Positions 16,924-61,658 of a stretch of DNA of 64,000 bases are shown here, piece after piece. The position numbers were made by a program, and so were the translations under genes. The stretch is taken from positions 143,253,009 through 143,317,008 of the forward strand of contig NC_134834.1 of the NCBI RefSeq assembly GCF_004210375.1, given 5' to 3'. This DNA is from Tachypleus tridentatus. Its lineage: Eukaryota > Arthropoda > Merostomata > Xiphosura > Limulidae. Position 1 is the first letter of the stretch; every line of letters starts with the position of its first letter. Below the pieces are notes generated by a model. The model saw nothing but the letters and a program-made list of their open reading frames with translations. It was not told where the DNA came from and made no database searches.

Positions 16924-17880
16924 TTAATAAGTAGCAATCAAAGACTTCTGTTCGTCGAGTACTTTCTGTTCCTCGGCTCTATGTTTATGAAGGGCAGCAT
17001 TGTGGTGCAAAGCGGTGTAATAGTGGCCAGGGTGGTAGTAGCCACCGTAGTAATTACCAGGGTAGTAGTAATTAGGGTAATAATAACCATGGTGGTAAGC
17101 AGCAGGATTCTTGGCAATTACTTCAAGCTCACGAGCTTTTTGAAGCTGAAGATCTGGTACTTGTTGTAAGTTGATGTAATGGAGAGCCTGCTGTTGTAGA
17201 GCCTGCAGATAGGCCGGGTCGTGTTGGCCTGCTGGAACGTTGTAGGGGAAGATCCCAGCCAAAGAAACAGTGCAGACACAAGCAAGGATTACCTTGACGG
17301 AAAATACAAAACTGTGTCATTACATAAGATAGAACTTTATTAAAAATATAGAACCATCTATTTCGTAAACGTACTTAAACTACTACGATGTGAGAATGAA
17401 ACATTGGAACTTAATCAAAATGATTAAACATGAACTAATGAAAACAAATGATCTGATTACAAAACACAACCAGTTCTATCAACATGCTCTCACTCCTCTG
17501 TAATGGATTACAACAACTCACTACATACAGAAATAATACAGTTTATACTTTGTTATTTATTGTTAATTTTATCTGTTGCTGGAACCAATCTGTAATGACT
17601 AATCTTTAACACAAGCAGATTAGATCGTCTTTATATGTATATATGAGAAATACGAGGGAATTTATAGTCAACTGCTGTAATTTATATTTAAGAAAAGAGA
17701 CAGAAAGTTGTTTTAAAAGTATGTTTGACAGGTGATACTTCCTTTATTATGAACAACTAGAAAGTTGAATTCAACATTTGAACATAACATGACAAGTTTA
17801 AAACATATATATTGTGGTATCTATAACCGTAATGGTTGCTGAGATCAAAGGGTTTTAACAACACTTACCAATCGCATCAT
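16924..17880 (-). CDS. His/Tyr-rich cuticle protein A
   Basis: Minus-strand gene of two coding exons: 17880-17869 (ATG ATG CGA TTG, then GTAAGT) and 17292-16924 (after ...CAAG), intron 576 bases, phase 0, product 126 aa. Residues 1-16 are a signal peptide (MMRLVILACVCTVSLA). The N-terminal helical part follows (FPYNVPAGQHDPAYLQALQQ, then ALHYINLQQVPDLQLQKARE). Residues 70-96 are a His/Tyr/Gly/Pro repeat (YYYPGNYYGGYYHPGHYY), and a short Glu/Lys tail ends the protein. I infer an extracellular cuticle component; His and Tyr suit quinone or peroxidative cross-linking. No RR domain is visible. It is the shortest intact family member: its C-terminal Lys/Glu helix is about one turn or two shorter than in B, D and E. 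Family identity rests on shared structure with B, D and E, not on a database match. Confidence 0.8.
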
Positions 17881-17976
17881 CTTTGTAGTGATTGTATGCA
17901 AAATCAACAGCTACCTCACTAAGGAAATCTGTACCAACAACAGTACCTCGATACAAACTCTGGAAACTATTCCAGC

Positions 17977-17983
17977 TTTTATA
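17977..17983 (-). promoter_or_regulatory. TATA box of cuticle gene A
   Basis: TATAAAA on the minus strand, about 100 bases upstream of the ATG. The flanks (gagagagTATAAAAGC, then GAATAGTTTCCAGAG, then GTACTGTTGTTGGTAC) are conserved in genes B, D and E, so a shared core promoter and 5' UTR are likely. Confidence 0.75.
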
Positions 17984-18271
17984 CTCTCTCGTTCACGGTC
18001 GTTTCTCAGGAGTAAACGATAAGTGTCCTTCTTAGTTTTGTCATCGAGAGTTATTAAGGAAGATGACCTTGCAGAGGAACCAAACACGTTGATCCTTACG
18101 TCAAAATACACTTTTTGCAAGAACTCCACCCGTGGTTTGTATCTAGAGGAATTTTCACGAATACGCCTTCTGAAATATCCGAGCACACAAACAAAGCTTT
18201 CATCTAAGTTCTCCATTCCATATAGTCGGCACAATGCCAAATATTTTGGGGGTCTCTTGTTCCTTGCTTAG

Positions 18272-18935
18272 CGTATACGATATTATAAAGTAACTTAAAA
18301 TTTTTATCATGTACACTCGAACATCCTACAGGTGTCAGCTTATTACAAAGTAAGTCTTTACAATTGTTTTGCTCGTTTAAAATTTTAAAGGGTTAAACTT
18401 TTGCTTAAAATCACAACAGGAAACCTTAGGTTGTTCTTCAGCTACAATAACATGGTTCACTTTTACTAAAACCTTGAGCAAAACATTTGTGTCTTACACC
18501 TTATACTATAAATGCACTTGTAAACAAACCATGTATTGGTAGTCAAAACATAAAAAACAAGTGTCTTCTTCGACTTCTTGCAAAAGAACTCCTTAACCAT
18601 TTCAATTAATTAATTTCCTTTGAAAGACAAACCCAGAGAATGTGAATACAGACTTGTAGACTTGCATACACAAATGTATCTGCAACGTTACGTGTTATAA
18701 TAATCTCTTGTCTGTTTATCAAACCGAAGTAAAACCTTATATTATACAGTTTGGTTCAGTTGCCTAACTGCTTCAAGCACTTATAATAAAATGTGAGTTG
18801 TAACGCATATTGTTCATCTGGTTAAGGTAAATATCTCATATCTTCACTTGTTATTCTTGATAAGTGGGCCTCTAACACGGTTCTTCCGTAAAAATGATTT
18901 TTACTTAATACCATAGATTTCAAAATAAAACCGAA

Positions 18936-23359: not shown

Positions 23360-24497
23360 TTAATGACTTGCTATCAGGTCCTTCTCAGCCTCGAGGACTT
23401 TCTGTCGTTCCTTCAGAACCTTCTGCTCATCCATATTATGTTTACGAAGAGCAGCATGGTGGTGTAAGGCGGAGTAATAGTAACCAGGGTGGTAGTAACC
23501 ACCGTAGTGATGACCAGGATAATAGTAACCAGGGTGATAGTAACCATGGTAATAAGCAGTAGGATTCTTGGCAATTACTTGAAGTTCACGAGCTCTATGA
23601 AGCTGAAGATCAGGTACCTGTTGTAGGTTGATGTAATGGAGAGCCTGTTGTTGTAGAGCCTGCAGGTAGGCAGGATCATGTTGGCCTGCTGGAACGTTGT
23701 AGGGGAAGATACCGGCCAAAGAAACAGTGCAGACACAAACAAGAATTACCTTGATAAAAAATACAAAAGTGTGTAATTACATAAAGATAGAACTTTATTA
23801 AAATTGTAGAACCATCTATTCTGTAAACATACATAAACTACTCCCAGTGAAAATAAAACATTAGAACTTAAATAATCAAACATAAACTTAAATATAGGGA
23901 AGAAAACAGTAATATTTGTACGTTAAACTGTAGCTAGAAGTTTAGAGTAATGTTTATTGTTAAGCACAAAGCTACACGAAGGATTATCTGTGTTGTGTCA
24001 AAACCTGGTTTCTACTTGTATAAGAGGACTTTAGAAACTGAAACTATTTTCTATTTGATTTGTTCAAACACAACAGTGTGAATATTAAAACTGTGACACA
24101 GTCTCATTTCAAAATGTTCCTTTGCAACAGGTTCATGCAATTTATTATAAACAGAAGGAACACTGTTCTTCATAATTGTGTTTATTGGTAGAGTGAAGGA
24201 GCCTATAGTGGCTTGTGTTTAACTACATAAGTAAATTAGATCAATTTTATATTTAAAAGTATTACAAATACGATGGAGTTTAAAGTGAACTGTTGCTGTC
24301 TTTATTTAGTAGTAAATCAAACATATGTCTTGAAATTCTGTGTACTAGATGCTATTCTCTCTTAACATGAACACCAGGAAAGGTGAATTAAACATTTGAA
24401 CACAATACGAAAAGTTTAAAACATGCACATTATCATATTTATAACAGTAATTGTTGCTGGATCAGAGAGTTTTAATAACACTTACCAATTGCATCAT
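23360..24497 (-). CDS. His/Tyr-rich cuticle protein B
   Basis: Two coding exons on the minus strand: 24497-24486 (ATG ATG CAA TTG, then GTAAGT) and 23749-23360, intron 736 bases, product 133 aa. Signal peptide residues 1-16 (MMQLVILVCVCTVSLA). Residues 17-65 are a Gln/Leu-rich helical part with the family signature FPYNVPAGQHDPAYLQ and INLQQVPDLQLHRARELQVI. Residues 69-96 are the His/Tyr repeat (YYHGYYHPGYYYPGHHYGG and on). Residues 97-133 form a charged Lys/Glu helix ending LIASH. It encodes a secreted, probably cuticular, structural protein (inference). It is closest to pseudogene C in exon and intron, and differs from A by a longer C-terminal helix. The intron carries an old SINE fragment also present in C. 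Confidence 0.8.
23945..24030 (-). repeat. old SINE subfamily 2 fragment in the intron of gene B
   Basis: Plus strand reads ttattgttaagcacaaagct, then aaaacctggtttctac. The same fragment at the same place in copy C (34180-34272) shows it predates the split of B and C. Confidence 0.55.
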
Positions 24498-24593
24498 CTT
24501 TGTAGCGATTGTATGTAGAATCAACAGCTACCTTACTAAGGAAATCTGTACCAACAACAGTACCTCGATACACAATCTGGAAACTATTCTTAC

Positions 24594-24600
24594 TTTTATA
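24594..24600 (-). promoter_or_regulatory. TATA box of cuticle gene B
   Basis: TATAAAA on the minus strand in the conserved family promoter block, about 100 bases upstream of the ATG at 24497. Confidence 0.75.
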
Positions 24601-24855
24601 CTATCTTCTTCATGGTCGTTTCTCAGGAGTAAACCATAGATGTCCTTCCTAACTTTGTTCCAGAACGTTAGTAAGAAAGGTGACCTTGCAGAGAAACCAA
24701 ACACATTTTTTGCAAGACTCCACCCTTGGCCTGTACCTCGAGGAAGTTTCACGAACAAAACTATTGAAATACTAGAACACCCAAATAAATATTTAATGTA
24801 GCTTATGAAAGGCATATAGTCGTCATTAACCTAAATGTCTTTGTGGCTCAGATTC

Positions 24856-25612: not shown

Positions 25613-26421
25613 AAGAAAGAGGTAACTGACCGGAAGCTGACCACATGTTTGAAAGGGGTTGTGTAACTGTGTGTCGAAATGTAGAGGGCGGTATTAGATG
25701 TTTGAATATATAATTTTATTTATTTTATTATATTAATATAGGTATAATCAATAAGTTTCCTCCACAAACCGTAGAAAACATTATACGCACACACCTAGAC
25801 AAAAAGCAAAATCAACCACCAACTAAAGTAAATACAGCTCACGAATCAAAAAACCACGAAACCATATACTGCTGTATACCATATATTCCTGACATCAGCA
25901 AACAAATAACCAACATTTGGCAAAAATTAGTAACAAAATATGACATTCCAGTTAATACCAAATTTATTCAAAAACCAGGCACAAAACTGAGGTCTATACT
26001 ATGTAAAAACTACACTGACAAACACAACACCAACATTATTTATAAAATACAATGTGATAACTGCCACGACTTCTATATTGGAGAAACAAGTAGGAAAATG
26101 GAAACCAGATTCAAAGAACATAAAAAGTCACCTTCACACGTTTTCGAACACTGCAAGTCAAATAAACACAACATAACCATAGAAAACACTCAAATACTAA
26201 ATAAAGAAACAAACATAAACAAACGCAAAATCAAAGAAGCCTTACTTATACAACAACTTAAACCCAAAATAAACCAATATAAAGGAACACCTTTATACCT
26301 ATATTAATATAATAAAATTATATATTCAAACATCTAATACCGCCCTCTACATTTCGACACACAGTTACACAACCCCTTTCAAACATGTGGTCAGCTTCCG
26401 GTCAGTTACCTCTTTCTTTGT

Positions 26422-30379: not shown

Positions 30380-32210
30380 ATATAACATGTTTTTATAATT
30401 CTCTTATCAAATATCATAAACAACACTTACTATTAAGATAAACTTCAGATATGAATAAAATAGTCATATAAGTACTGTTTTCAGTAAACAACACAATTTA
30501 CTATTTATCGTAATTTGTCCAGTTCAACAACCGCATAAACTTAAAAATTTATATATCAAATAAATATGAAACCATACTTCATTAACTGTCAACACTCCTG
30601 TATTTGTTTTTATCTTTGTAGTAGTCTTACCAAACGTAACCATAACAAGAATATTTGTTGTTCCATTTTATTCGATAAAACGACAAAACACTCATAAAAT
30701 GTTTATCGTTTTATGATGGAGCTAAGGAGCAGCTAATACAAAATATCAAAGTAAGAGAGACTGAAATATCCATGCAAATGTGGTGATATATTAATATTCA
30801 ATGGTTGTGGTCCTCCTAGAGATAAAAAAGGAATATATCTTTGTCTTAAAACTTTTAGTTATATGTATGAATGACATCTTAGGAGGAAAAGATGCTGAAA
30901 ATGCGTCGTCTATTGAAAAAAGGATGGTCAAGAGTCAAAAGCTAATTATGAATTCAGCAATTTGCGGATTCAGTTCTTTTGAAGCAGAAGCTTAATGGTA
31001 TCTTTGATGACATCATGTGCTACACAAATGACAGTAGAATCCCACTACTGAAGGGTAACAGTTGATAATTAACACGATTGAGTGGCTTTCTTTCCTCTCC
31101 TCAGTGAGCTCAGAAGTAGGATAACCTTCCTGGTTATCAACTTTGTTACATTAATATTATTAAACAAACAAAGTAACGCTGTCCAGCTTCAGTTAGATTT
31201 AAATGGCCATGAAACACACTGTGGTTTTTGTTTTATAACAACGTTGTGTATTGTACAGCTTATTGATTAATATCGTTTCTCTGTTAGGTATGTATATGGG
31301 CATATTTTCTTATAGCAAACCACATCGGGCAATCTGCTGAGCCCACCGAGGGGAATCAAACCCCTGATCTTAGCGTTGTAAATCCGTAGACTTACCGCTG
31401 TACTAGCGGGGGGCTCTCTTTTAGGAGAGTACAAAGTATTCGTTTGGAACAATGACCATAAAGATTATTTCTTGAAGTAACTTGTTACCGTTTCGTTAGC
31501 TATGTCAAAATTATTTGTACCTTCAGTGTTAACCATTGTTTTTCTTACCTTTTCTCATGCTGTAATTTTTAATTTTCACGTTGGCGCCTTGAACGGCAGA
31601 TGAATACGAAAGTGGAAAGATATGAAAATGAATTATTATGTAGTAAAACAATTGTTGAGTGATTACTGGAAATTCAGTGGACTTACTGTTACTGAGGACG
31701 AGATGGATTGTAACTCATTGGAGGAAAAGAAGTTACAAAGCAGACGGAATAAACAGGAAGTATCTGTTTAAGCGTCGCTGCTGATTTTCTACTGTGTATT
31801 TTACTGACTACTTCATAACAGATGTATTTCATATTAACCAACTGATGTTTCTTTGTTTGTGTTGTTCATAATTCTCAAATACGCTATATGACTCAACGAA
31901 TAGTCCAAGAGCTCATATTACTAAAATATAAAGTTTCGCTACTTATGGTAGGCAGAACACACACAGCTCATTGTGAAATTTTATGCTACGTTTGATCATG
32001 AAATAAGGTACTAATTTACTATTTTGTTTTTCCTGAAATATTTAAAATTATACTGGAGTTGGTATAAAAAATTACCTGTGTATTTGTAGCTACATGGACT
32101 TCACACTTATTATTTACTGTTCTAAGCTTCAGTTGCTATTGAAAAAAGTAGGCAGTTTGATACAATGACAGTTAACATCAATAAATGTAAAACTACAATA
32201 TCTTGGTGGG
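30380..32210. repeat. spacer block duplicated at 50.45-51.9 kb
   Basis: Long diverged similarity to 50.45-51.90 kb: gtttttatctttgtagtagt, cgttttatgatggag, tctttgatgacat, aaatgacagtagaatcccac, aaatatttaaaattatact and tacatggacttcacactt appear in the same order in both. It contains a SINE (31303-31413) absent from the other copy. Confidence 0.75.
31303..31413 (-). repeat. short tRNA-derived SINE, subfamily 3
   Basis: Plus strand: cttatagcaaaccacatcgg, then gcccaccgaggggaatcaaa, then agcgttgtaaatccgtagac, ctagcggggggc. Confidence 0.75.
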
Positions 32211-32259
32211 ATTCTCGTGTGGGTTCTAAATCCCATTGGCTGGCGTAAAAGTTTTACAT

Positions 32260-32430
32260 ATTTCATCAGGGCCTTCTCCACTTTCTGTTGCTCTGCTAGA
32301 ACCTACAGTTCATCTAAACTGTGTTTGTGGTGCAGGGTGGTAGTAACCAGGGTGGTACTCAGCAAGGTTCTTAGCAATTACCTCAAGCTCACGAGATCTA
32401 TGAAGCTACAAATCGACACCTATTGTTGAC
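32260..32430 (-). pseudogene. decayed copy of a His/Tyr-rich cuticle gene
   Basis: Fragments of exon 2 in the right order on the minus strand: the Lys/Glu tail (cagggccttctccactttctg against tcaggtccttctcagcctcg in B), a shortened repeat part (tggtagtaaccagggtggta) and the helical part (ttagcaattacctcaagctc, then acgagatctatgaagct). Most of the His/Tyr repeat is deleted, and nothing like exon 1 is found. It lies only 1.1 kb from pseudogene C. Confidence 0.65.
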
Positions 32431-32509
32431 TAATGTGATCACGTGAAGTATACATAACTAAACAATCAGTGTCCTATTTCGTCAAGTACAAACGTATTGT
32501 GAACTTTCT

Positions 32510-33030
32510 TTCAACACAATGACGTGGTTGAAGTATTTTTAGGTGGTTGCGTTTCATTTTACATCATATACTTAAAGAATTTTTGCCTTTGGAATCATGG
32601 ATATTTGGACTCTTAAACACTGAGGTAATGGTATACAAAACATACAGTGATATATTTCGAAAGATGAAGATCAGACTCATCAACGACCTGAGGCTTGGAT
32701 TAGACTAAGAATTTATAGCTTTATGTCTGAGAATATCAACACTTAACAGCAATAAACCTAAACTTAATTGTTTCACTATCTATATCATGTTGTTGATTGT
32801 TGACAAACTTTGATGATTAAATTGATTAGCACTGACAACACACGAGTTCAGAACCAGCGTGACAACATATTTCTATAAAGCTAGTTCGATGTTTTTATAT
32901 GGGTTTCATATATTATAACGTGACATTATTCACTGATGTAGAGTTTGTAAAAAAAACGTCTATAAATATGATGACACAACCCTCTGATAACAGCTTTCTT
33001 GGTAGTTTATTTGTTTCAGTAAACAGTTAT
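32510..33030. repeat. shared 3' flank of the cuticle copies
   Basis: Diverged counterpart of about 52.13-52.25 kb (gacgtggttgaagtat, ggaatcatgga) and of about 59.34-59.89 kb (atatttcgaaagat, tatctatatcat). The three flanks keep the same order of conserved words. Confidence 0.65.
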
Positions 33031-33564
33031 ATGTCAACATTTGACAAGATTTATATGAACATTAAATTACACAACTATTTATATGGTATTCTGCAGTAAA
33101 AGAACAACAATCAGGTATCTTTAGATTATAGAAAGAACGGTGTTTGAGTATCTGTAGAAGATGGTTTAATACAAAACAGATATCAGTAGCCTTTTCTTCA
33201 AAGTAAAACTACGATAACGAAAGCTGGAGAGAATGTAGCGAAGTAAATACGGAAGGTTATTTCATGAGACTCAAGAAATTAGAATCACCAGAAAAACATT
33301 TTAAAAATATTCACAGTTGGCCTTTTGATTATTTTCATGTAGTAGATATTCCAGTGTTTTAAAACATGTTACATGTGCAAGTTACTTAAATATAAGTAAG
33401 AAGTGAATTCTTGAAAGTTGTCTCGAAGTTGTTAATTAAAGTTGAATGTCATTCATCAGTCACTTTATAAAAGTATATCTAGATGGTGAAAGCTGAAAGA
33501 AAAACATTTTAAGAGAATCAAGAACAAATGAATGTCAAAAACACGACAGAACCAATAATTGGGT

Positions 33565-33954
33565 TTAATGACTTGCTATCAGGTCCTTCTCAGCCTCGAG
33601 GACTTTCTGTCGTTCCTTCAGAACCTTCTGCTTATCCATATTATGTTTACAAAGAGCAGCAAGGTGGTGTAAAGCGGAGTAATAGTAACCAGGATGGTAG
33701 TAACCACCGTAGTGATGACCAGGATAACAGTAACCAGGGTGATAGTAACTATGGTGATAAGCAATAGGATTCTTGGCAATTACTTGAAGTTCACGAGCTC
33801 CATGAAGCTGAAGATCAGGTACCTGTTGTAGGTTGATGTAATAAAGAGCCTGTTGTTGTAGAGCCTGCGGGTAGGCAGGATCATGTTAGCCTGCTGGAAC
33901 GTTGTAGGGGAAGATACCGGCCAAAGAAACAGTGCAGATACAAACAAGAATTAC
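33565..33954 (-). pseudogene. cuticle gene copy C: intact-length exon 2, no exon 1
   Basis: Exon 2 is exactly as long as in gene B (390 bases, stop codon included) and clearly its closest relative. Codon 23 of the exon is TAA (33886-33888) where B has CAA (Gln of PAGQHD). The rest of the frame remains open, including the His/Tyr repeat and a C-terminal helix; one repeat Tyr is Cys. The intron follows for about 520 bases, then sequence jumps at about 34516 to a block that in B lies 360 bases upstream of exon 1. A deletion of roughly 500 bases has therefore taken exon 1, the TATA box and the 5' UTR. Not expressible as a family member. Confidence 0.85.
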
Positions 33955-34179
33955 CTTGATAAAAAATACAAAACTGTATCATTACATAAAGATAGAACTT
34001 TATAAAGCAGTGTTTTATGGGCAGCTTAGAACCATCTATTTTGTAAATATAGATAAAATACTATAATGTGAGAACAAAATAGTGGAACTTAAACAATGAA
34101 ACATAAACTTAAAGATATGGAAAAGAAACAGTAACATTTATATGTTAAACATTAGCTGGAATTTTAGAGTACATTAGTT

Positions 34180-34272
34180 GTTTATTGTTAAGCACAAAGC
34201 TACACAAAGGATTATCTGTGGTTTGTCAACCACAAGTATCAAAACCCGGTTTCTAGCTATATAAGAGGACTT
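34180..34272 (-). repeat. old SINE subfamily 2 fragment in the intron of copy C
   Basis: Orthologous in position to the fragment in gene B: gttaagcacaaagctacaca, then tatcaaaacccggtttctag. Confidence 0.6.
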
Positions 34273-35025
34273 CTGAAACTGAAACTAATTCCTATTTACA
34301 TTCATAACCAAACAAAACCGCTTCTATTAACATATTGCAGTTTCTTCTTAAGAGATTCCAACAAATCATTATGGACAGAAATAAGTTATGTTGACTTCAT
34401 ATGTATACATATTACAGATGGGAGGGAGTTACAAGTAAACTATTACTATCTTTATTTAGTAGTAAATCAAAACTTTGTGTTGAAAATATGTTTAATATAT
34501 GATATGTAGTGTTATGAGACATCGTGTGTACAATGTTATAACGTAAGTTAGGTTATTCCTCATGTAATCCAGCACAACCTCTTGTTGTCATAATATTAAA
34601 ATCTTTAATTTTGGTTGTGAAACAGGAAGATTTTTATAAATAATAACATTCAATCACTTACCATCTCAGACCGTCAACAACAAGGTTAAGAAGATCACCA
34701 CATCAAACTTGACACTGGGGAAAAAAAATAATGCATTGAAATAAATAACTTTATGTCTTAGAAACAACGCTTAGCAACTTACCACTTTAAATATTCGGCA
34801 TATAACGTTTTGTTATGATAGATAACATACATGATAGATATGGCAATGTCTAGATAAATAACACTGGGAATCTTACCACCTGGAAACTTAGTAATAGTTA
34901 TCGTGTGTGATTTTTCAGGGGTTAATATATTGCTGTAGAACTGCAACAAGAAAGTCTAGGTTATTGATGTTTCAACAAAAGATGATATAACTGACTTTTA
35001 CTTGAAATATGTGTATAACATTAGT

Positions 35026-35255
35026 TTGTTTCTTGTTTGAATTTCACTCAAAGCTACATGAAGGCTATCTGCGCTAGTCGTCCCTAATTTAGCCAATTCT
35101 TGGGCTACTCTTTTACCAACGAATAGTGGGATTGACCGTCACATTATAACGCCTCCACAACTGAATGGGCGAGCATGTTTGGTGTGACGGGAATTCGAAC
35201 CCTCGACCCTCAGATTACGAGTCGAATGCCTTAATCACCTGGCCATGCCGGGCCT
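35026..35255 (-). repeat. tRNA-Thr-like SINE, subfamily 1, internal deletion
   Basis: Ends gccatgccgggcc at 35255 (head) and gtttgaatttcactcaaagc at the left. About 50 bases of the body (the gtaagactagagg part) are missing. Confidence 0.8.
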
Positions 35256-35779
35256 ACATAATATTAGTATTTCACATCTTGTTATATAAATATATTGATA
35301 AATACATCTTTTAGATGTGTTATAAATACACAAAGAAGTACGTGATTTATATAATATTATACAAAAGACACACCTCAAGCACTTCGATACAGAGTTGTTT
35401 ATATCTGAAACGTTACAATTTACGATATCATATTTTCATTATTTTCGTTATTGTTAATCAACCTATGGTAAATTACAGTTTACTATAATACCACAACTCC
35501 TTCAAGTTTATTTTAGCTTTACCAGTCAAATGTCATCTTCAAGAAGTACTGTTTGTTTACTGAAACTGAAATCACATATCTAGAATTGTATTTCTTAAAT
35601 CTTTGGGCCTAATAATGTATATTGTTTTATGTCGTTTCTAAATTGACACTGAGCAAGAACAAGTTCTCCTACTTAAAATTATGTATTTCAAAATAACAGA
35701 TGAAATACAGTTAAACATATAAATACACTTTTTCAATCAAAACATATCAAATTTTAAAATGTTATGTTGGTACTCGACA

Positions 35780-42704: not shown

Positions 42705-43557
42705 ATGAGAAAAAGAAAGTTAAGCCTAAATAGTGAAACTCCATTAAGAAGGACTGTGTCCATTTCGTTAGAGGGGGAGACAGTGAATCTTGTTGAGAAT
42801 AGTGAGCTTGATTTAAATATGGGGGAGGCAGATATGAAGTGGCTTAAGACAAAAGTTACTGAAATTTTGTCAAGACTTGATGACTTTCACTTAATTAAAG
42901 TAAAGGTCGAAGAATTAGTGACTTCCTTTCAATATTATTCAGAGAAGGTAGAAACTATGAGTGAGGATATCACAACTTTGAGAGCTGAAGTTAAGGAGTG
43001 TAAACAGGAAAATAAAACATTAAAGCATGAAAATGAAGAATTGTGGAAGGAGATGGCAAGTTTTCGGAGGAAGATGTGTGAAGCGGAACAATATTCTTAT
43101 AACTATAATGTTTTGATTGGAGGTATTCAGAGAAGCCTAATGAGAATTTGCAAGAAGTTGTTGAGAAGATTACAACTACTTTTGGGGTTGACTGTGCTCC
43201 TACAGATATTGACACTGTTCATCGTATAGGAAAGAAAACAACTGAAAATAAGAGTCCGAGACAGATTGTTGTTAAGTTTTGTCGTAAGCAAATTAAATTT
43301 GATCTGCTTAAACTTAAGAAAACTAAATTTCGCTCTCTTAATACTAATGATATTAAGGTCTGTAATGAATCTTATCCAGTTTATGTTAACGAACATCTCT
43401 CCCCATATTATCGTGATATTTTCATGCAAGCAAAACGAAAACAGAAAGATCTTGGCTATAAATTTCTTTGGGTATCGAATGGTAATATTCTTATTAGGAA
43501 ATCAGAAACTACTCAGCCCATTGTTTTACGTTGCTTGATTGATCTTAATAATTTATA
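42705..43557 (+). pseudogene. LINE ORF1 protein, one frameshift
   Basis: An N-terminal part of about 50 residues, a coiled coil (residues about 50-130, heptad-like Leu with EDITTLRAEVKECKQENKTL), then a basic RNA-binding region continuing in another frame after a single-base shift near 43127 (EVVEKITTTFGVD, DTVHRIGKKTTENKSPRQIV). It ends at 43557. This layout of coiled coil followed by an RRM-like domain is that of L1-type and CR1-group ORF1 proteins. Confidence 0.7.
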
Positions 43558-43565
43558 AATACTGC

Positions 43566-46424
43566 AATGGCTGATGATTTTGATGATATTGTTGGTGTTA
43601 CACCAACTTTGTCTTCTCTTTCTGATTTACCAAATGTTTTTCTGTTGGTCATTTAAATTTAATACATGTTAATATTCGAAGTCTTACTCAAAATTTTGAC
43701 CAATTTCTTGTTTTTTTACAATCAAGCGTTGTTAAATTTCATATAATAGCTTTTTCTGAAACTTGGTTTGTTGAGGATGGATTTGTTTCCTTTTCGATTC
43801 CAGGTTACTCCTTTTATTCTTCATCTTCTAGTCTAAATAAGGCTAGTGGAGTGGCAGTTTTGTTAAATTTGAGATACTGACTATGATAAAAGAAGTACAG
43901 TACATTAAGTCTGATGCTTTAATTTTATTTTGTATGATTCAAAATAAGAAATTTAATCTCTTTGTTGTTTATCGATCTCCTAGATTGCCTGTATTGAAAT
44001 TTATTGATGAGCTTTCATTAGAATTGAATTTATACAAATATGATATTAATATACTTGTTGGTGATTTTAATATAGATGTTTTGGCATTTGATGATGTTTG
44101 TTATAAGAATGCATATTTTAAGTTTTGTCTGAGAACAATCTTCGTATTATTATTTCTTCTCCTACACGGATAACCAATGTTACTAATTCTTGTATTGATC
44201 ATTTTTAATTAGTGGAAATACTGTTAAAATTGTTATTCTTATATTGTTGAGAGTTTTTTGACCGATCATTTTCCAATTGTTTTATGTATAGACATTTTAT
44301 CGGATCTAAAACATGTCTCAAATGTTCAAAAGATTAAGTTTAATGAATTGAGTTCTTGTTTGAATTTTTCAGATTGGTCCTGTGTTATGAATTGTTCTGA
44401 TGTTAATGTTGCTTATGATAATTTTGCTGAAGTGTTAACTGATTGTATTCAAAGTTGTACTACTACTGTTTCTGTGTCACGAAAGTTTAGAAAAATTAAG
44501 CCATGGATTACCAGTGAATTGGTTTTGTTAATGATTAAAAGAGATAAGTTAAAAAGAAAGTACATCAATTTCCTGATGATATTTATCTAAAGATTAGATT
44601 TAAGTGTTTAAGGAATTATATTGTTAGCTTGACCCGTAAGACTAAATGGACTTATTATCATAACCTGTTTAAGAATGCTAAAACTATTAAACAGAATTGG
44701 AATATTGTTAACTCTATTATTGATGTTAAAAAAAAAAATAAGAAATTTTGTAATTTTGGTACTACTGATTTATCTGATTTGAATTATTTTTTTGTTAATG
44801 TTGCTAAATCTACTTGCTCCAATCCTAAATTTTGTTCTCAGGGCATGCCTCCTGCTCCTTCTTCTTCTTGTTATCTATATCCTGTTACTGTATCTGAAAC
44901 TATGAATAATATTTTCTCCTTATCAAATTCAGCTTCTAATGGTGTAGATGGTGTTTCGGTTAAGATTTTGAAAGCTAATGCTAATCTTTTTGCACCAATT
45001 TTGACTTTTTTTAATTAATTTATCTTTTACTCAAGGGAAGTTTCCTAATGCTTTAAAGTTATCATTGGTCATTCCTATTTATAAATCTGGTAATATTTCT
45101 GATTTTACGAATTATAGACCTATTTCCTTATTAATACATTTCTCTAAACTATTTGAAAAATCTATGAAGATTAGAATTTTATCATTTCTTGATAGACATT
45201 CAGTTTTGTCTCCTTCTCAATTTGGCTTTCGGCCTGGGCTTGGAACGGAGGTTGCTGTTGCTAAACTTGTGGGAAGTATTACAGAAGCTTTGGATTCTGA
45301 TCTTCATCCAATTGCTGTTTTTCTTGACTTAGCCAAAGCTTTTGATTCTGTTAATCATAAAATATTGTTAAATAAATTATCTTATTATGGTTTTAGAGGC
45401 ATTGTTTTTGATTGGTTTTTTCTTACTTTCACAATAGAAAGCAATCGGTTTGTATCCATAATAATTATAGTGATTGGCTTACAATTAATGTTGGAGTACC
45501 ACAAGGTTCTGTTCTGGGCCCTTTATTATTTCTCATTTATATAAATGATATTCTTTACCAACAGTTTTTGGAGATATCCAAGCCTATGCCGATGATATTG
45601 CTGTTGTTTATAGTAAGCCAAATCTAATTAATGAAGCCATTATTTCTAGTGATCTTAATAAAATTAAAATTGGCTTTTCTGTAATGACTTATCCTTAAAT
45701 ATATCTAAATCTTTTCTTCTTCAGTTTAACCTTTATGGTGTCATTCCAGCTTTTCCTTCTATTTTTTATCATTCTAGTGATTGTTATACTTACTCTAATT
45801 GTAAGTGTCCCAAATTGACTCAAGTTTCCTCTGTTAAATATTTAGGAATTATTTTAGATCGAAAATTAAATTGGCAATTTCATATTAATTCTTTAGTTAA
45901 TAAATTAAAATATAGTTCTATGCTAATTTTGAACTTAGTCATTGTGCTCCTTATCATATTTTGTTAAGTGTATATTATGCTCTCTTTCAATCTTTCTTAC
46001 AATATTGTATTTCAATTTGGGGTGGCACATATAAGACTTTTTTAATTCCTATTCACAAGTTGCAAAAAAGTGTTTTCTCTCTTATTTTTACTCATAGGCT
46101 TGATACCGATTTCAGTAAATTTAACTCCCCTCTTTCATATGATAAACTTTATTTATATTTTTTAGCTTTATCTACATTGCATGTTTCTTTTAATAGGCCT
46201 TTTAAAGTCACTTCATATTTTACACGACTTCAATCTTTTTTTCCAATTAATGTACCCACACCACGTAAAACAGTTACACTTCATCAATATCTTTATTTGG
46301 CACCTCGTATTCATAATTTTATTCCTTATAGTATAAGATCTTCTATTAATCGTGTTAATCAAAAGAAATACTTAAAACAATGGATCTTAAATACTGATGA
46401 CAATATTCTGGGAACTTTATATTG
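43566..46424 (+). pseudogene. LINE ORF2: endonuclease and reverse transcriptase
   Basis: Starts MADDFDDIVGVTPTLSSLSD at 43566 and shifts frame near 43655. Endonuclease motifs: HVNIRSLTQNFDQF, IIAFSETWF, VYRSP, INILVGDFNIDV. RT motifs: [57 protein letters not shown], and [10 protein letters not shown] near 45582-45611. C-terminal domain SIWGGTYKTFLIPIHKLQKS, HRLDTDFSKF, ending NILGTLY at 46424. There are roughly half a dozen frameshifts and stops, so it is inactive. Clade within the CR1/L2/Jockey-like group, not decided. No ribonuclease H seen. Confidence 0.8.
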
Positions 46425-49400
46425 ATTTTGTAAGTTTTGATTTTACTTTATTATGTGTTTAACCATCACAGGACGAGTTAACTCTTTGTTGATGGTTTTA
46501 TATTGATATTTGATTTTTTGTGTCTAATTTATTGCTTAATAAATTTATTATTATTATTATTATTATTATATTTAAGTATTAAATAGCTAAAAAAAATAAA
46601 TAATTACTCTTATACTAAATAGTTTCATTTATCCAACAAATAGCCCTTCTACAAGAAAAATACAAAATTTATTTACATACATGTTGTAAACATGTAGAGC
46701 TCGTTTACTGGTCTCTCTTTGCAAAAAAAAATAAAATTGGTAGAGCTTTAGATTGACAGGATCTCTGGATTTCATCTTTAACTTTTGTTTCCTTTGGCTG
46801 TTTTGTTTTTTTTCAAATCTTTCAATTTTCATTTATGCTTACTTCATTATACGCCTTATCTCCACACAATGGTCTTAAGTCTAATAGGTCTTCAACTTCT
46901 ATAACGAATTCATCATCTTTTGATTCTACTATGTCCCATCTATAACCTCAATAGTTGCACACGTTATGTCTTCTTCTATCTCGAAGTACCTCTTTAACAA
47001 ATTGTCATGTAAATCTTTATCGTCCATCCGTTTTCAACTTATAGTGCATTCTGCGGATAACTTTTTATACTTTGAAAGATCCTTTCCACTTTCTCACAAG
47101 ATTGCTGTTGGCTGTGAGAAGCAGAGCTAAAATCTTAAAATGTCGATCATTGACCTTCGTATTATATAAGAACTTTTTACCTCCTTTGATATGTTTAACT
47201 TCACCAGTAGAACTATTTTGAGGGTTCTGGCTCAATACTCCTTTCCAGTCCTCTGTTTTTAAAGTATCTGTCTGTTTTGTATTGTGCTCGACTTTGTCTC
47301 AGCCACTGTTCTGAAGTTTCTGCAGTGAAGTGTCTTTCTTCTGCACTTTCTTCAGTTCCAGTAGACTTTCATTCAGGATGTTAATCGCTTATACTTGCAA
47401 TAGCTTGATATTACTAGCTTGTTTTCCTTCCACCGAGTTTTTGTAGCGACTGCACGTGCTTTATCTATCTTCTAGTTCCTCCAAATTCCAACTACCTAGT
47501 ATATTTCCAATCACCCAGTCACATAATGGTCCTTTCATATAGATGGCCTCAAGGTCTACCATGTAGTGAGAAGTATCCATATTTATTTTTGTTATGAGAG
47601 ACTTTCTCACTGTCCCATTAATTATCATACACGGGTGTACCTTTCCTGTCATCTGATCATTAGATACTAGATTGGTTCTCACTGCTGCACCATTGCAGCC
47701 TGTGTTTCATAGGACCTACACTTTCTTGTTCATGATATAGCCTTTTCCTACTGGCATATTATGATTTGTTGTAACACTTATGACGTTTATCACATATTTT
47801 AATCACAACTGGCACTATTGATCTATTTATTAACTTCAACTAACCATTAGTAATGCACTGCGGATAACTTTGTGGTTAGCGTAATACGTTTTTTTTTATT
47901 CTATTTCTTCTTGCACTCACATCCATGGTCATAGTTACTCCTTTATTTCTTGCCAGCAACATCTTTATAGATAGCTACAGTTGGTCTATGTTGACATTTC
48001 TGCTGTTTTTGTTGGTAGTGGACTTGGATTCCTTTAAAATGTGTCTAATTTTATAACAAATACAGCATCTCTTCTCCTTTCTATCTGTGAGCCTTCTGTC
48101 ACCTTTGTTAGACTGCTGCTACTTCTCAGCCATCACTGGTTTAAATTTCAACTGTTCTTCTTGGACTTGTCAGTTATACTCCCTCAATGGGCTTCCATAC
48201 ACTGTTCTGCTACCTTGATCATCTCGTCCACCTCTATTGATGTGTTCTCTTTTAGGAAGACTGAAATGTCATTTGAGCTCGTGATCATTTATTAGTAGAT
48301 CTGTCAGTCCTTCTAAAGTATTTTCACATTTAGCTATGTCCGTCTATATTTGAAGTATCGCTGTAGTTGTGCCTCAAACTAAAATACAGTTTCTCTAGTG
48401 TCAGGTTTAACTTTTTTCACTTTGATGAAAACCTTCGTAACTAAGTTCATAGTGTGTCAACAAGACCCCTTTTAACTTGTCATAGTGTATGACTTCTTCT
48501 GGCATCATGCCTGTATGCACTCGTAAGCCTTTTCCTGAGAGAATGGGCTGAGACAGACTGTCCAGTCACCTTCTTCCCAGTTTTAATTTTAGACAAATTT
48601 TTCACCTGTCTGCAGGATAGAAGCCATATCATCTTTCCGTTCATCAGATTTAAGCACTTCGGGTCAACTAGCTCTAATCCTATTGTCATTTGTGGATCTT
48701 TCTTTTCATGAAGCTTGAGTTTTGCAATCTTAACTTGTGTTCTTTTTCTCTCCATTTCTAGTCTCTCTTCTCTCTTCCTTTTTCTAATTTTCTTATCCTT
48801 TCTATATTATTTTTCAGTCTTTCTCTTTCCTTTTCCTCTTTTAATTTTTGTTTCTCTCTTCTCTCTCCAGTTTTTGTTATTTTTAAACAAACTTTCATAG
48901 TTCTCCATCTCTTAACCCAAGGTGCTCCATTTATCAAAATCTGTTGACATGGTTAAAAAGAGTAGTTGCGAATTTCAATATTTTCGCCATCACTGTAACT
49001 GTATCCCCTTCTGCTGTCGTTTATCTTCTTCTATTGTTATTTACCACTGTACAATCCTGTCACGGACGCCAGATGTCAGAGTTTTAGTATCAATGGGCTA
49101 GGATTATTTTACAGTAAGCGATAAATTGGAACAACAAACGAACAGCACACAATCCAATTATTTTGAAATAATATATATATTTAAAAACAAATCAAAAATA
49201 AGTAAAAAATTAATCCCACTACAGGATATCACAATTGTCTCTAAATAATTATCTTTTCTTTTTAAATGTCCAATTCACAGGACAAATTATTTTTCTCCAA
49301 TCTTTTTCTTACTATAAAATTTGTTATGAATTCACTGACGCTATTCCGTGAATTACCACTTGTGTATCAGAACTTTCAATAACTATCTGTTTATTCGAGA

Positions 49401-51900: not shown

Positions 51901-52994
51901 GAGCTATAAACCTCCTTGTACAATCTAAAATGTTTACGTTCACCAGGATCCACATCTAAAAAAACTGCAACGTCCCTAAAGTACCTAGTTTTCAAACTTG
52001 GAATAAAATAAACAAACGTTTGAAATTTTAATGTGGTCACGTGTACACTGATACTTGAAAACACATAAATATTAGCAATTAGTGAAATATCTCGGCAAGT
52101 TAAACTTATAATGAGCTTCCTTTTGACAGCATGACGTGGTTGAAGTATATCTATATGGTTACTCCATATATCAGACATAGTACCTGTACTTAACAAAGAA
52201 TGTTTGCCTATGGAATCATGGATTTTCACTTGTACATACTGAGTTAATGAAATAAGAAACGTAATATCTTACTTATTACCATTTTTTTCTCCTTAGAAAT
52301 AACTTTCAACCGATGAACACATTTACTGACCACAAATTAAGTCAATGTAACCAATACCATATATTATATTTCTTGAAGTCACTTTTTTTTTTCTTCTTTT
52401 TGTGGTTGGAATGATTTATTTCGTTTACCCTTGCGCCGAAATTAACTATATTTAATTTCTATACTTATTTTTTTCGTTTTATCCAACTTGCAATTCTTAA
52501 TTTTATACTGCCACATTGTAGTTCTTTGATATTACAAATATAAGGATATTTCGTATAGAAATGTTAATTCAATTTTCTCAATAACACAATCTTTGCCCTT
52601 TCAATAAACAATACAAAACAGTAAAATATATGTACATTTGTCTTTAAACATATGAACAGTAATATAAGGCAGACGATATGTAGCTGGGTAAATACACGAA
52701 ATTATTTTATGCGAATTAAGAAAATAGAATCACCAGTAAACATACTGTAACAAATTTGTTTCTTCATCTTTTATTAATTTCATGCAGTAACTTGAAACAT
52801 TTCGAAATTACATGTAAAGATGTTTTAAATATAAGTAAAGAGCGAATTTTCTTCTTTATTGTTTCAAAATCCTTCAGAAATTGTTAATTATAGCGAAAAC
52901 AACAAACATTTGTAAAAGTATCTGTAAAACTGTTGTAACCTTGAAGAACAAAATATTTGAGTATCAGTATAAAAATATAACCGGGTCATTAGGT

Positions 52995-54341
52995 TTAATG
53001 GCTGGCAATCAGGGTCTTCTCTGCTTCGAGGACTTTCTCTCGTTCCTTCAGACTCTTCTGCTCATCCAAACTGTGTTGATGAAGGGCAGCACTGTGGTGC
53101 AAAGCGGAGTAATAGTGGCCAGGGTGGTAGTAACCACCGTAGTAATTACCAGGGTAGTAGTAATTTGGGTGATAGTAACCAGGGTTGTAGTAACCGGGAT
53201 AATAGTGACGAGCCTGTTTAGCAGCACGCTCCTCTACTTTAAGCTCCTCAGCTTTATGTTTCTCGAGATCCGATACTTGTTGTTGGTTGATGTAATTCAG
53301 AGCTTCCTGTTGCAGGTTCTGCAGAAAGGCCGGATCGTGTTTACCTTCTGGAACGTTGAAGGGGAAGACTTCGGCCAAAGCAACAACGCAGAGACAAGCA
53401 AGGATTGCCTTAGTTAAAAATACAAAACTGTATCGTTACAAAGCTTCATTTAAAAACGTTATTTTAAAATCAATTTCCGAACCTATAAATATACATAAAG
53501 TATTACAATCAATGAGAAAATCAATTGTTGTAAATTTATGAAAATGATGAAACGCTAACCAAACTGTTGAGAAAGTCAACATTATAATTTATAGCGTTAA
53601 TTAACACAGCGATTCATTTAGTATGTAACAATTAATATCAGAACATTTTAAAGATAGAAATTCCATGCGTCTGGATATATATTCAAATAAATTATTCAGC
53701 ATGATATGAAATAATAAACAATAAGTTATGTTTTTAAAATCAAGTGTTTGTTTTGTGTTTTTTCTTAGAGCAAAGCCACAAAGGGCTATCTGCTCAGCCC
53801 ACCGAGGAGAATCGAACCTCTGATTTTAGCGTTGTAAATCTGGAGACATACCGCTGTACTAGCGTGGGTGGGCTTTAAAATCAAACCACTATCATGTTCA
53901 GCTCAGACTCTTACATAATGAAGAAGGGTGACATATTGTTTAATACATAAAACCGTAATAAAAAACAGTAAAATGTATCATAAGTAATCTCGTAATATGT
54001 CACTAACATTCCATGGAATTAATCAATATTTAATAATATTTATCCAGCCAAGTAAATTATAACGTCTTTCTGTGTATTTATATCTATATATCTATATTTA
54101 ATATCTAGATATATATATATGTTAATAATTCGATTGAAATTTTAAGTGCAGAAAATGAAACAAAGCTGTCGTTGAAAATAAGTTTAAAAAATGATACTTT
54201 CTATTAACTTGAGAAACGGGAAAGTTGAATTTAACATTTGGATATAATATTTCAAGTTCAAAACATTTAAAAATGTTTAATTTTAAACAAGAATGACTGC
54301 CGCGATCAAAGAGTTTAAACAACGCTTACCAATCGCATCAT
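52995..54341 (-). CDS. His/Tyr-rich cuticle protein D
   Basis: Coding exons 54341-54330 (ATG ATG CGA TTG, then GTAAGC) and 53408-52995, intron 921 bases, product 141 aa. Residues 1-16 signal peptide (MMRLAILACLCVVALA). Residues 30-68 helical, Gln/Glu/Lys-rich (DPAFLQNLQQEALNYINQQQ, then VSDLEKHKAEELKVEERAAK). Residues 72-104 His/Tyr/Pro/Gly repeat (HYYPGYYNPGYYHPNYYYPG and on). Residues 106-141 a charged helix (DEQKSLKEREKVLEAEKTLI). Secreted, probably cuticular (inference). D and E form a subfamily with FPFNVPEGKHDP and an added VEERAAKQAR stretch before the repeat. A possible polyadenylation signal AATAAA (minus) lies at 52860-52855, about 135 bases past the stop. The intron holds a recent SINE absent from E. 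Confidence 0.82.
53744..53873 (-). repeat. short SINE, subfamily 3, inserted in the intron of gene D
   Basis: 130 bp flanked by exact tttaaaatcaa (53733-53743 and 53874-53884). The empty site is preserved in gene E near 61190-61204 (tttttttaaaatcaaaccag). Direct before-and-after evidence of one insertion. Confidence 0.93.
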
Positions 54342-54437
54342 CTTTATATTGATTGTATGTAGAATCAACAGCTGTCTTACTAAGGAACTCTGTACCAACA
54401 ACAGTACCTCGATACACACTCTGGAAACTATTCTGGC

Positions 54438-54444
54438 TTTTATA
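54438..54444 (-). promoter_or_regulatory. TATA box of cuticle gene D
   Basis: TATAAAA on the minus strand within the conserved promoter block, about 100 bases upstream of the ATG. Confidence 0.75.
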
Positions 54445-54544
54445 CTCTCTTCTTCATGGTCGTTTCTCAAAAGTAAACCATAGATGTCCTTCCTAGCTTT
54501 GTTACCGAGGGTCACTAAGGAAGATGGCCTTGCAGAAGAACCAA

Positions 54545-58745: not shown

Positions 58746-58915
58746 CTGAAAGTGCAAATAATAAAAGTGGAACACACGAAATCACAAATAGGCAGACAGA
58801 CTGACATGTCCACAACTTTCAAGCATTTCAGGAAAAACGAAAAAGCTGTGGACATGTCAGTCTGTCTGCCTATTTGTGATTTCGTGTGTTCCACTTTTAT
58901 TATTTGCACTTTCAG
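58746..58915. repeat. perfect 69-bp inverted repeat with 32-bp spacer
   Basis: Arms 58746-58814 and 58847-58915 are exact reverse complements (ctgaaagtgcaaataataaa at the left edge, its inverse at the right). Pairing continues inward with one mismatch. No coding capacity and no clear target duplication. It could be a fold-back MITE, an inverted duplication or a hairpin RNA gene. Confidence 0.9.
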
Positions 58916-60310
58916 TCTTTATTTGTAGTTGAAAAAGTGCGCATGGACTCGTAGATTTTAACCTCGATAAACATTAAAAACCCGCCAATTTTCTTCTGGG
59001 GTTCTAAGGTGGTCTAGAAAACACCCTTTCCCAATTTCCACCTCCCAAAGTCAGTTGAGAAGCTTGAATGTACTTAAACTACCTGGTTTCGCAGTTTGAA
59101 ATTAACTCATACTTTAAATTTTAATCTCACAATATAGAAAATAACTGAGTGTGCATTAAGTTACATAAAACTACTTATTAGTCAAAGCTCATAACGAGTT
59201 ATATTTATATTTCCATCGCGAGTATCAAAACCCTATTTTTCGAGTGGTGAACCTGTGGAATTACGATGAACCGCTGAAGGCACACCAATAGTCAATGATC
59301 TACTTTAACAAATACAAACTTACTACAAACTCACTTTCAATAATATGTTGACTTGGAAGTATTTTTACGTGAAAAATTATCCTTTCATTTCACGAATTAG
59401 ACTTAACAAATTTTCTCATATATATATATATATGTTTACATTTGGAATAGTAGAGTTTCACCTGTAAAAACTTAACTAATAAAGTGCCAAATGTACTACA
59501 CAATAATATATTTCGAAAGATAAAGGTTAAACGTATTTCATCAACGATCCATGTCTGGTTAGTATAACAAAGAATTCATGATTTGTGTGCTTGAGAATAT
59601 AAGAAGTTTTCAACATTATTAGAAGTTACTGAAAATAGGCTTAAGCTTAACTGTTTCATTATCTATATCATAAGGTTGGTATTTGATATACTTTGAAAGT
59701 TAAGATGACTAGTATTGAAAACTCATGTTTTAGGAGTAGTTTTAAATTGTGTTTGTAGGAAGCTAGTATCGATATTATTATATCCGTTTTAGCTGTTGTA
59801 ACGTAGCATTTTTTGAGGTAGCAATCTTAAACAAATTCCATATAGAAATGATAATACAGTTTTCTCAAAAACACCATCTTTGTCCTTTCAATAAACAATA
59901 TCTTGTTAAATGTTGCCAAAGTTCCTGAGAGCAATACTTCATAAATCAATTGAAATGGCGTTGTACAAAACAATCACAATAATCAAGCACGGAAGAAAAT
60001 AGAAAGAATGGCTTAAAATAGTTTTGAAAAACGTTTTTAATACAAAACAGTAAGCTATCTGTACATTTGTCTCTGAGAGTTATGAATATGATAACACAGA
60101 CAGACAACATGTAGCTAAGTAAATACATGAAATTATTTCACAAGACTTAAGCAAAGGGATTCACCAGTAAAATAAAACTGTACCAAAATTGTTTGTTCAC
60201 TTTTTATTAATTTCAAGCAGTAAATTATCCAGTCTTTCAAAACACGTTGCATTTACAAGTAGAGAGCGAATTGTGTTCTTTCATGTTTGAAAATCCTTTA
60301 GAAATTGTTA
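58916..60310. other. gene-free stretch including shared 3' flank of gene E
   Basis: 59.34-59.89 kb matches, diverged, the flanks of copies B, C and D (tttcattatctatatcata, ccgttttagctgttgtaacg). 59.9-60.31 kb aligns at about three quarters identity by eye with 52.6-52.89 kb. Confidence 0.55.
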
Positions 60311-60418
60311 GTTAAAGCGAAAACAACAAACATTTGTAAAAGTATCTGTAAAACTGTTGTAACCTTGAAGAACAAAATATTTGAGTATCAATATAAAAAT
60401 ATAACCGGGTCATTAGGT

Positions 60419-61658
60419 TTAATGGCTGGCAATCAGGGTCTTCTCTGCTTCGAGGACTTTCTCTCGTTCCTTCAGAGCCTTCTGCTCATCCAAACTGTGT
60501 TGATGAAGGGCAGCATTGTGGTGCAAAGCGGAGTAATAGTGGCCAGGGTGGTAGTAACCACCGTAGTAATTACCAGGGTAGTAGTGATTTGGGTGGTAGT
60601 AACCAGGGTTGTAGTAGCCGGGATGATAGTAACCAGGATGATAATAACCAGGGTAATAGTGACGAGCCTGTTTAGCAGCACGCTCCTCTACTTTAAGCTC
60701 CTCAGCTTTATGTTTCTCGAGATCCGATACTTGTTGTTGGTTGATGTAATTCAGAGCTTCCTGTTGCAGGTTCTGCAGAAAGGCCGGATCGTGTTTACCT
60801 TCTGGAACGTTGAAGGGGAAGACTTCGGCCAAAGCAACAACGCAGAGACAAGCAAGGATTGCCTTAGTTAAAAATACAAAACTGTATCGTTACAAAGCTT
60901 CATTTAAAAAACGTTATTTTAAAAATCAATTTCCGAACCTATAAATATACATAAAGTATTACAATCAATGAGAAAATCAATTGTTGTAAATTTATGAAAA
61001 TGATGAAACGCTAACCAAACTGTTGAGAAAATCAACATTAGAATTTATAACGTTAATTAACACAGCGATTTGTTTAGTATGTAACAATTAATATCAGAAC
61101 ATTTTAAAGATAGAAATTCCATTCGTTTGGATATATATTCAAATGAATTATTCAGCATGATATGAAATAATAAACAATAAGTTAAGTTTTTTTAAAATCA
61201 AACCAGTATCATGTTCAGCTCAGACTCTTACATAATGAAGAAGGGTGACATATTGTTTAATACACAAAACCGTAATAAAAAACAGTAAAATGTATCATAA
61301 GTAATCTCGTAATATGTCACTAACATTCCATGGAATTAATCAATATTTAATAATATTTATCCAGCCAAGTAAAGTATAACATCTTTCTGTGTATTTATAT
61401 CTATATATCTATATTTAATATCTAGATATATATATATGTTAATAATTCGATTGAAATTTTAAGTGCAGAAAATGAAACAAAGCTGTCGTTTAAAATAAGT
61501 TTAAAAAATAATACTTTCTATTAACTTGAGAAACGGGAAAGTTGAATTTAACATTTGGATAAAATATTACAAGTTCAAAACATTTAAAAATGTTTAATTT
61601 TAAACAATAATGACTGCCGCGATCAAAGAGTTTTAACAACACTTACCAATCGCATCAT
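60419..61658 (-). CDS. His/Tyr-rich cuticle protein E
   Basis: Coding exons 61658-61647 (ATG ATG CGA TTG, then GTAAGT) and 60862-60419, intron 784 bases, product 151 aa. Same signal peptide, helical part and C-terminal helix as D, with only a few amino-acid differences. The His/Tyr repeat is ten residues longer (extra PGYYHPGYYH-type units, residues about 72-114). Secreted, probably cuticular structural protein (inference). Exon 1, intron, exon 2 and near flanks are almost identical to D over about 1.65 kb, far closer than the sequence on either side, so the two have been homogenised recently. Confidence 0.82.

Follow-up and report, generated by a model that had tools for sequence, protein, structure and literature searches.

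Introduction

Among arthropods whose genomes are complete, no other cuticular protein family comes close in size to the proteins with the Rebers and Riddiford (RR) domain (CPR, PF00379), as stated in a passage of PMC4244043. According to excerpts of PMC2259329, the first exons of RR cuticle genes in Anopheles have a median and mode of 12 nt, and the signal peptide region is interrupted in 86% of the intron-bearing genes. Short, repeat-rich, secreted proteins without RR also occur, in the CPLC-type families and CPLX named in part of PMC5395146. A section of PMC8062583 describes how laccase2, together with N-acyl dopamines, cross-links a His-rich RR-2 protein from the cuticle of moth scales into films in vitro. 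In horseshoe crabs, transglutaminase-cross-linked cuticle proteins and caraxin are reported in an excerpt of PMC2956697.

Here we analyse a tandem gene family in a stretch of 64,000 nucleotides (the window) from Tachypleus tridentatus. The Coagulin family marks the genome as that of a horseshoe crab. Judging from gene layout, genomic neighbourhood and composition, the genes are likely to encode structural proteins secreted into the horseshoe crab exoskeleton, a non-RR family of the cuticular matrix.

Gene models

The minus strand of the window carries four open genes (W1, W2, W5 and W6) and two dead copies (W3 and W4). Gene models and the analysis of the disrupted copies agree in this with the initial annotation, which had counted four intact and two dead copies on one strand. 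The open genes, modelled from the sequence, are as follows:

17869..17880, minus strand: W1 exon 1 (MMRL), donor GTAAG
16924..17292, minus strand: W1 exon 2 including the stop; spliced protein of 126 aa
17976..17983, minus strand: W1 TATA box (TATAAAAG)
24486..24497, minus strand: W2 exon 1 (MMQL)
23360..23749, minus strand: W2 exon 2; spliced protein of 133 aa
24593..24600, minus strand: W2 TATA box
54330..54341, minus strand: W5 exon 1 (MMRL)
52995..53408, minus strand: W5 exon 2; spliced protein of 141 aa
54437..54444, minus strand: W5 TATA box
61647..61658, minus strand: W6 exon 1 (MMRL)
60419..60862, minus strand: W6 exon 2; spliced protein of 151 aa
61754..61761, minus strand: W6 TATA box

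With W1 as query against the 2.17 Gb genome, the other three open copies were recovered at E values of 6e-61, 2.6e-41 and 2.2e-27, a mutual similarity far above chance. Their introns (576 bp in W1, 736 in W2, 921 in W5 and 784 in W6) are phase 0 and GT..AG, with all four donors starting GTAAG and all four acceptors finishing AAG, and each lies within the likely signal peptide. The distance from the ATG to the upstream TATA box is 96 bp in every case. Because exon 1, the splice sites and the TATA spacing are conserved in the four window copies, and because two paralogues on another chromosome share a similar design, we predict that the 12-base exon is spliced to exon 2. The proposal of a 12-base first exon followed by an intron inside the signal peptide thus agrees, by sequence conservation, with all four window genes.

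This layout is an ordinary one for cuticle genes. The TATA box TATAAAAG lies upstream of all six open genes (the four in the window and the two paralogues), and in all six models a short first exon is followed by an intron that interrupts the signal peptide region, taking the excerpts of PMC2259329 as the yardstick. An RR cuticle gene adjoins the cluster, and it too has a candidate 12-base first exon:

7846..7857, plus strand: RR cuticle gene, candidate exon 1 (MLQV), 12 bases
8120..8797, plus strand: RR cuticle gene, exon 2, containing Chitin_bind_4 (E 2.6e-12 for the neighbour taken as 8102-8797)

The 12-base exon is therefore ruled out as a hallmark of the family, since it is usual in the mosquito RR genes of that source and has a candidate counterpart in the neighbouring gene; the description of the four-codon exon as an unusual design did not stand. 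Among 100 listed sites of the combined TATA-plus-four-codon-exon pattern, three lie within 2.5 kb upstream of an RR domain, against 0.014 expected, one of the three having helped to define the pattern.

A second motif, GACCATG..GTATAAAAG, was found at 21 sites genome-wide, compared with 18 for a backwards control. Eight fall in the two family loci and a probable haplotig described below (three window copies, three haplotig copies, the paralogue C6a and the RR gene on C6), and 13 lie elsewhere. Downstream of four of those 13 we saw no cuticle-like gene. Given the control count and these four sites, the motif is ruled out as a general cuticle promoter code.

Protein segments and family searches

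The mature window proteins have 110-135 aa, lack cysteine and contain 21.6-24.8% His plus Tyr. Their N-terminus is hydrophobic and has, judged by eye, a small-x-Ala site. A Gln-rich segment is followed by a His/Tyr/Pro/Gly repeat and then by a Lys/Glu-rich segment; the NVP-[AE]-G-[QK]-HDPA motif noted earlier is present in all four window open proteins. The repeat holds neither Gln nor Lys, while the flanks of the window copies carry both, and its length differs by 10 residues between W5 and W6. Mean helix propensity is 1.09-1.20 in the flanks and, in the window copies, 0.73-0.79 in the repeat (segment means, with segments cut by a simple script), and the flanking segments are probably helical. 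Their computed hydrophobic moments are low (0.09-0.26), so strongly amphipathic helices receive no support.

None of the six open proteins (W1, W2, W5, W6, C6a and C6b) matched PF00379 (Chitin_bind_4) at E up to 10, and neither an RR nor another chitin-binding domain was found in them, in agreement with the claim that the family lacks an RR domain. In Pfam, nothing passed the cut-off for any of the six, the best being DUF4766, whose 15.4 bits fall short of its cut-off of 27; NCBIfam gave nothing over cut-off for the three proteins scanned. The initial annotation had likewise been unable to assign a named cuticle family. A PDB search by sequence returned no relative (best E 1.4 and 2.6). In view of these results, a cuticle function is argued from context.

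Paralogues and RR neighbours on a second chromosome

Two diverged paralogues, C6a and C6b, lie on another chromosome (C6). They keep both flanks and lack the His/Tyr/Pro/Gly repeat, so that the core conserved across the family is formed by the flanks, with the repeat as a variable insert. Gln makes up 24% of these proteins overall. Each has one Lys (1.0%), outside the analysed segments, so self-cross-linking between Gln and Lys would hardly apply to them.

At both loci, family genes and RR genes stand tail to tail. The nearer C6 RR protein is 44% identical to the window RR protein over residues 5-230 of 231 (E 4e-49). Family genes and RR gene have a similar gene skeleton and, on C6, also a common core promoter motif. 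When the N-terminal segment was compared with RR proteins to see whether it might descend from one (nine comparisons), the number of shuffles per 1000 that scored at least as high as the real sequence was 7, 29, 89, 129, 368, 382, 388, 389 and 434; no such descent is claimed here.

A probable cuticle-type family and its alternatives

Gene layout, an RR gene beside both loci and composition support the part of the initial annotation that saw cuticle-type secreted proteins without RR; the unusual standing of the four-codon exon has no such support. The family resembles CPR genes in its 12-base signal-peptide exon and TATA box (excerpts of PMC2259329), in its tandem clustering, as in a spider case described in part of PMC10810088, and in its RR neighbours, but its six open proteins have no Chitin_bind_4 match. 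It resembles the CPLC-type families and CPLX in being short, repeat-rich, predicted to be secreted and without RR, and differs in its conserved NVP-x-G flanks, the insect families having been compared by description only. Like the moth-scale proteins, it has a His-rich stretch that could take quinone cross-links; those, however, are RR-2, and the one tested in the section of PMC8062583 has 45% His, whereas the present proteins have 8.8-11.1% His and 12.8-15.5% Tyr and no RR.

The genes could possibly encode Limulus or Tachypleus cuticle proteins that have already been sequenced, transglutaminase substrates including caraxin among them, which would be compatible with the cuticle reading; the initial annotation had raised the transglutaminase substrates as a lead. 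The family shares with these substrates a horseshoe crab origin, a cuticle-type character and the presence of Gln and Lys (compared by description only), and the report of such proteins in PMC2956697 counts in favour. A 2003 Limulus cuticle study by Ditzel reportedly found proteins of 7-16 kDa with 13.5-35.4% Tyr, values that the 11-16 kDa and up to 15.5% Tyr of the present family overlap. Yet the proteins that transglutaminase aggregates in horseshoe crabs are described as RR-2 in part of PMC5395146, while this family is non-RR. Six peptide strings of the family were absent from the literature searched, a set that does not include the primary papers (Ditzel 2003, Iijima 2005, Matsuda 2007).

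It is unlikely that these are His/Tyr-rich secreted proteins of another product (egg envelope, adhesive, gut lining or haemocyte granule) with an RR gene nearby by chance. His/Tyr/Gly/Pro repeats are also found in non-cuticular extracellular materials, and the proteins have neither a chitin-binding domain nor a family match over cut-off; but the RR linkage recurs at two separate loci, with a gene skeleton like that of the RR gene and, on C6, the shared core promoter motif.

If the family is cuticular, epidermal cells would secrete the proteins into the cuticle around the moult, and the flanks, probably helical, may associate with one another or with other matrix proteins. The His/Tyr repeat could be cross-linked by quinones or via tyrosine, and the Gln and Lys of the flanks would be available to transglutaminase. 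A fuller scenario, which we regard as distinctly doubtful, is that a family of the horseshoe crab lineage originated next to an RR gene, with the cuticle promoter and signal exon retained and now enclosing an unrelated body. Three cross-linking chemistries would then sit in separate blocks of one small protein (Gln-rich, a His/Tyr repeat growing and shrinking by units, and Lys/Glu), and the Lys-bearing window proteins on C10 would complement the Gln-rich, almost Lys-free C6 proteins as partners for transglutaminase.

With its separate cross-link blocks and repeat-less paralogues, such a conserved non-RR family would offer a natural comparison for what the His/Tyr repeat contributes to cuticle. 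Cuticle annotation based on RR or Pfam would overlook such a gene family.

A near-identical second cluster

Part of the cluster was found again 15 Mb away, on a contig of about 99% identity between two 500-N gaps. Homology starts exactly at one gap, and the other coincides with the contig end. The main blocks match at 98.9-99.5% identity, and the tail, which carries indels, at 98.2-99.7%. This second cluster is probably a misplaced haplotype (haplotig); a genuine second locus is disfavoured because of the 500-N gaps at the start of the homology and at the contig end and because of these identities, though a recent segmental duplication is conceivable.

Dead copies and selection

The two dead copies are:

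33565..33954, minus strand: W4 dead copy, exon 2 with an in-frame TAA
32270..32439, minus strand: W3 dead-copy remnant, two stops and a frame change

In W4, the stretch that holds the promoter and exon 1 in its sister W2 is missing, with a jump in the homology from 34516 to 34505. Across 31000-37500, the patterns tried for exon 1 and the TATA box gave no match. That the family consists mainly of decaying or unexpressed duplicates is highly improbable: dead copies make up two of the six in the window and a 2-bp deletion shifts the last codons in one copy (probable alternative haplotype), but TATA boxes and splice sites are present in all six open copies, four in the window and two on C6, and pairwise dN/dS is 0.06-0.46 across the 15 pairs computed. 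The values of 0.20 for W1-W2 and 0.06 for C6a-C6b are counted as purifying selection.

A family of His/Tyr-rich proteins on the minus strand

On the sequence, the window carries a real gene family, which is of cuticle type by its layout, neighbours and composition. We found six relatives of exon 2, all on the minus strand, in agreement with the four intact and two dead copies proposed in the initial annotation. All four open copies (W1, W2, W5 and W6) begin with a 12-base exon 1, ATGATGC[GA]ATTG, followed by GTAAG (at 17880, 24497, 54341 and 61658). Their phase 0 introns measure 576, 736, 921 and 784 bp and the spliced proteins 126, 133, 141 and 151 aa, respectively. In each open gene a TATAAAAG box ends 96 bp before the ATG, and the first 500 bp past the stop codon contain one or more copies of AATAAA or ATTAAA. 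Of the disabled copies, W4 is missing the promoter/exon 1 stretch and is interrupted by an in-frame TAA; W3 is a remnant inside 32270-32439 that shows a frame change and two stops. The family proteins contain no RR domain, as had also been claimed, and gave no match in the family libraries searched.

By their divergence, W5 and W6 are recent duplicates: their introns are 97.4% identical over 782 aligned bases and their coding sequences differ at seven positions. The W1/W2 split is older (dS 0.50). Long open frames run antisense to exon 2 of W5 and W6 (52839-53417 and 60302-60871, both plus strand) and are most likely shadows of the composition of the coding strand.

Paralogues and RR genes on C6

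We searched the 2.17 Gb assembly (205 contigs), in which match counts are lower bounds. It contains at least 19 matches to the Coagulin family PF02035 (best E 1.5e-25), which had none in 14 control genomes; the control is weak, since the arthropod family PF00379 also had none in those 14. Coagulogen is a clotting protein of horseshoe crabs (PMC2956697). It is not known from other animals. A W1 query revealed at least 13 matching stretches: six in the window (W1, W2, W4, W5 and W6, the last split in two), five in a C10 region 15 Mb away and two on C6. A mature C6b query with E up to 10 revealed no loci beyond those found with W1. Each of the two C6 paralogues, C6a and C6b, has a TATAAAAG box and a first exon of four codons; their introns measure 317 and 327 bp, and the products, 112 aa each, start MLRL and MFRL. 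The C6 proteins keep F-P-Y-N-V-P-x-G and both flanking segments and are without the His/Tyr/Pro/Gly repeat.

The family cluster adjoins an RR cuticle gene:

Window 8102-8797, plus strand: RR cuticle gene, Chitin_bind_4, E 2.6e-12
Window 7846, plus strand: candidate exon 1 of this gene, ATGCTTCAAGTG, 12 bases, donor GTAAG

On C6, the paralogue pair (plus strand) is followed by minus-strand RR domains at 152330274 and 152338501. The first matches the window RR protein with 44% identity (E 4e-49, residues 5-230 of 231), the second with 39% identity (E 1.5e-29). Because both loci have family genes and an RR gene arranged tail to tail, the C10 and C6 loci look as expected of paralogous blocks. Three whole-genome duplications are reported for horseshoe crabs (PMC7815833), and the two blocks may stem from one of them. 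Between C10 and C6 family members dS is 1.2-2.0, near saturation, and it is 2.5 for the RR gene pair.

Pairwise, tree-free Nei-Gojobori estimates for the 15 pairs from six open genes gave dN/dS of 0.06-0.46, consistent with constraint on the protein; the W5-W6 value of 0.34 comes from 7 differences.

First exon and promoter

The 12-base first exon, initially regarded as an unusual design, is ordinary for cuticle genes. The candidate exon of the neighbouring RR gene is also 12 bases long, and in Anopheles gambiae, according to PMC2259329, RR first exons span 3-36 nt with median and mode both 12, and 86% of RR genes with introns are interrupted in the signal peptide region.

We scanned the genome for TATAAAAG-N67..97-ATG-N9-GTAAG, with a gap range derived from the family genes and the adjacent RR genes, and found 303 sites versus 218 for the backwards control. 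RR proximity was counted for the 100 of these sites listed (contigs C1-C6, C6a and C6b included), against 53 listed RR domains there; the RR list came from 150 of 299 candidates scored and lacks the window RR gene. Three listed sites fall within 2.5 kb upstream of an RR domain versus 0.014 expected, or two when leaving out the C6 RR gene, which helped set the gap. Three were reached in 0 of 5000 random placements, for which some contig sizes were approximations. Within 5 kb the count was four versus 0.028 expected. Most listed sites therefore lie away from listed RR domains.

The nearer C6 RR gene, at 152330274, has MLRL as its candidate exon 1 and a promoter resembling that of C6a. This gene, C6a and three of the four window promoters carry a second element, GACCATG-N7..9-GTATAAAAG:

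Window 24593-24617: GACCATG-N7..9-GTATAAAAG
Window 54437-54461: same element
Window 61754-61778: same element
C6:152320067-152320089: same element
C6:152330895-152330917: same element

The element had no match in the C6b promoter, and its genome-wide frequency was not above control. Similar promoter-like stretches with GACCATG..GTATAAAAG occur 67 kb apart on C9 (159822000-159825000 and 159889700-159892500); downstream on the promoter's strand, all open frames in the stretch read stay below 50 aa.

Composition and possible cross-linking

Mature proteins were predicted by cutting after residue 16, a site picked by eye, and divided into three blocks with a simple script. The predicted mature window proteins have 110-135 aa, 12.8-15.9 kDa, pI 6.25-8.12, no Cys, 8.8-11.1% His and 12.8-15.5% Tyr; those of C6 have 96 aa, 24% Gln and 5-6% Tyr. 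In the window copies 13-18 Tyr and 4-8 His fall in the repeat block, from which Gln, Lys and Glu are all absent; by the script-cut blocks Gln and Lys are confined to the flanks. This separation suggests two functions, in which the flanks would mediate association and the repeat would undergo oxidative or quinone cross-linking. Such chemistry is plausible by analogy, because a His-rich moth-scale cuticular protein was cross-linked into films via laccase2 with N-acetyldopamine or N-beta-alanyldopamine, as PMC8062583 describes. PMC5395146 identified no His-, Tyr- or Gln-bearing peptide that was consistently absent, so on that account even that insect offers no established cross-link sites. For horseshoe crab cuticle proteins, PMC2956697 and PMC2573874 report cross-linking by transglutaminase; according to PMC5395146, the proteins treated with this enzyme in the 2005 study were RR-2.

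A probable second haplotype of the region

The C10 region 15 Mb away probably represents the other haplotype, misplaced in the scaffold:

C10:128363816-128417474: probable haplotig contig, with a 500-N gap directly before its start and another at its end
Window 42690-46567: insertion with reverse-transcriptase-like ORFs (by eye) and a TTA-rich end; empty site in the haplotig

Starting at its first base, the haplotig aligns to the window from 27066 onward and to the right flank, with 98.9-99.5% identity in the main blocks and 98.2-99.7%, with indels, in the tail. It lacks W1, W2 and the RR gene, and shares the TAA of the dead copy with the window. The haplotig has three long-type genes versus two in the window; the third (C10:128400664-128401212) carries a 2-bp deletion near its end that shifts the last codons and could be either genuine or an artefact of the assembly. 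The insertion is, by appearance, a LINE. Two further window ORFs, at 25714-26307 (plus strand) and 40020-40625 (minus strand), resemble a GIY-YIG endonuclease and a reverse transcriptase and are perhaps Penelope-like elements.
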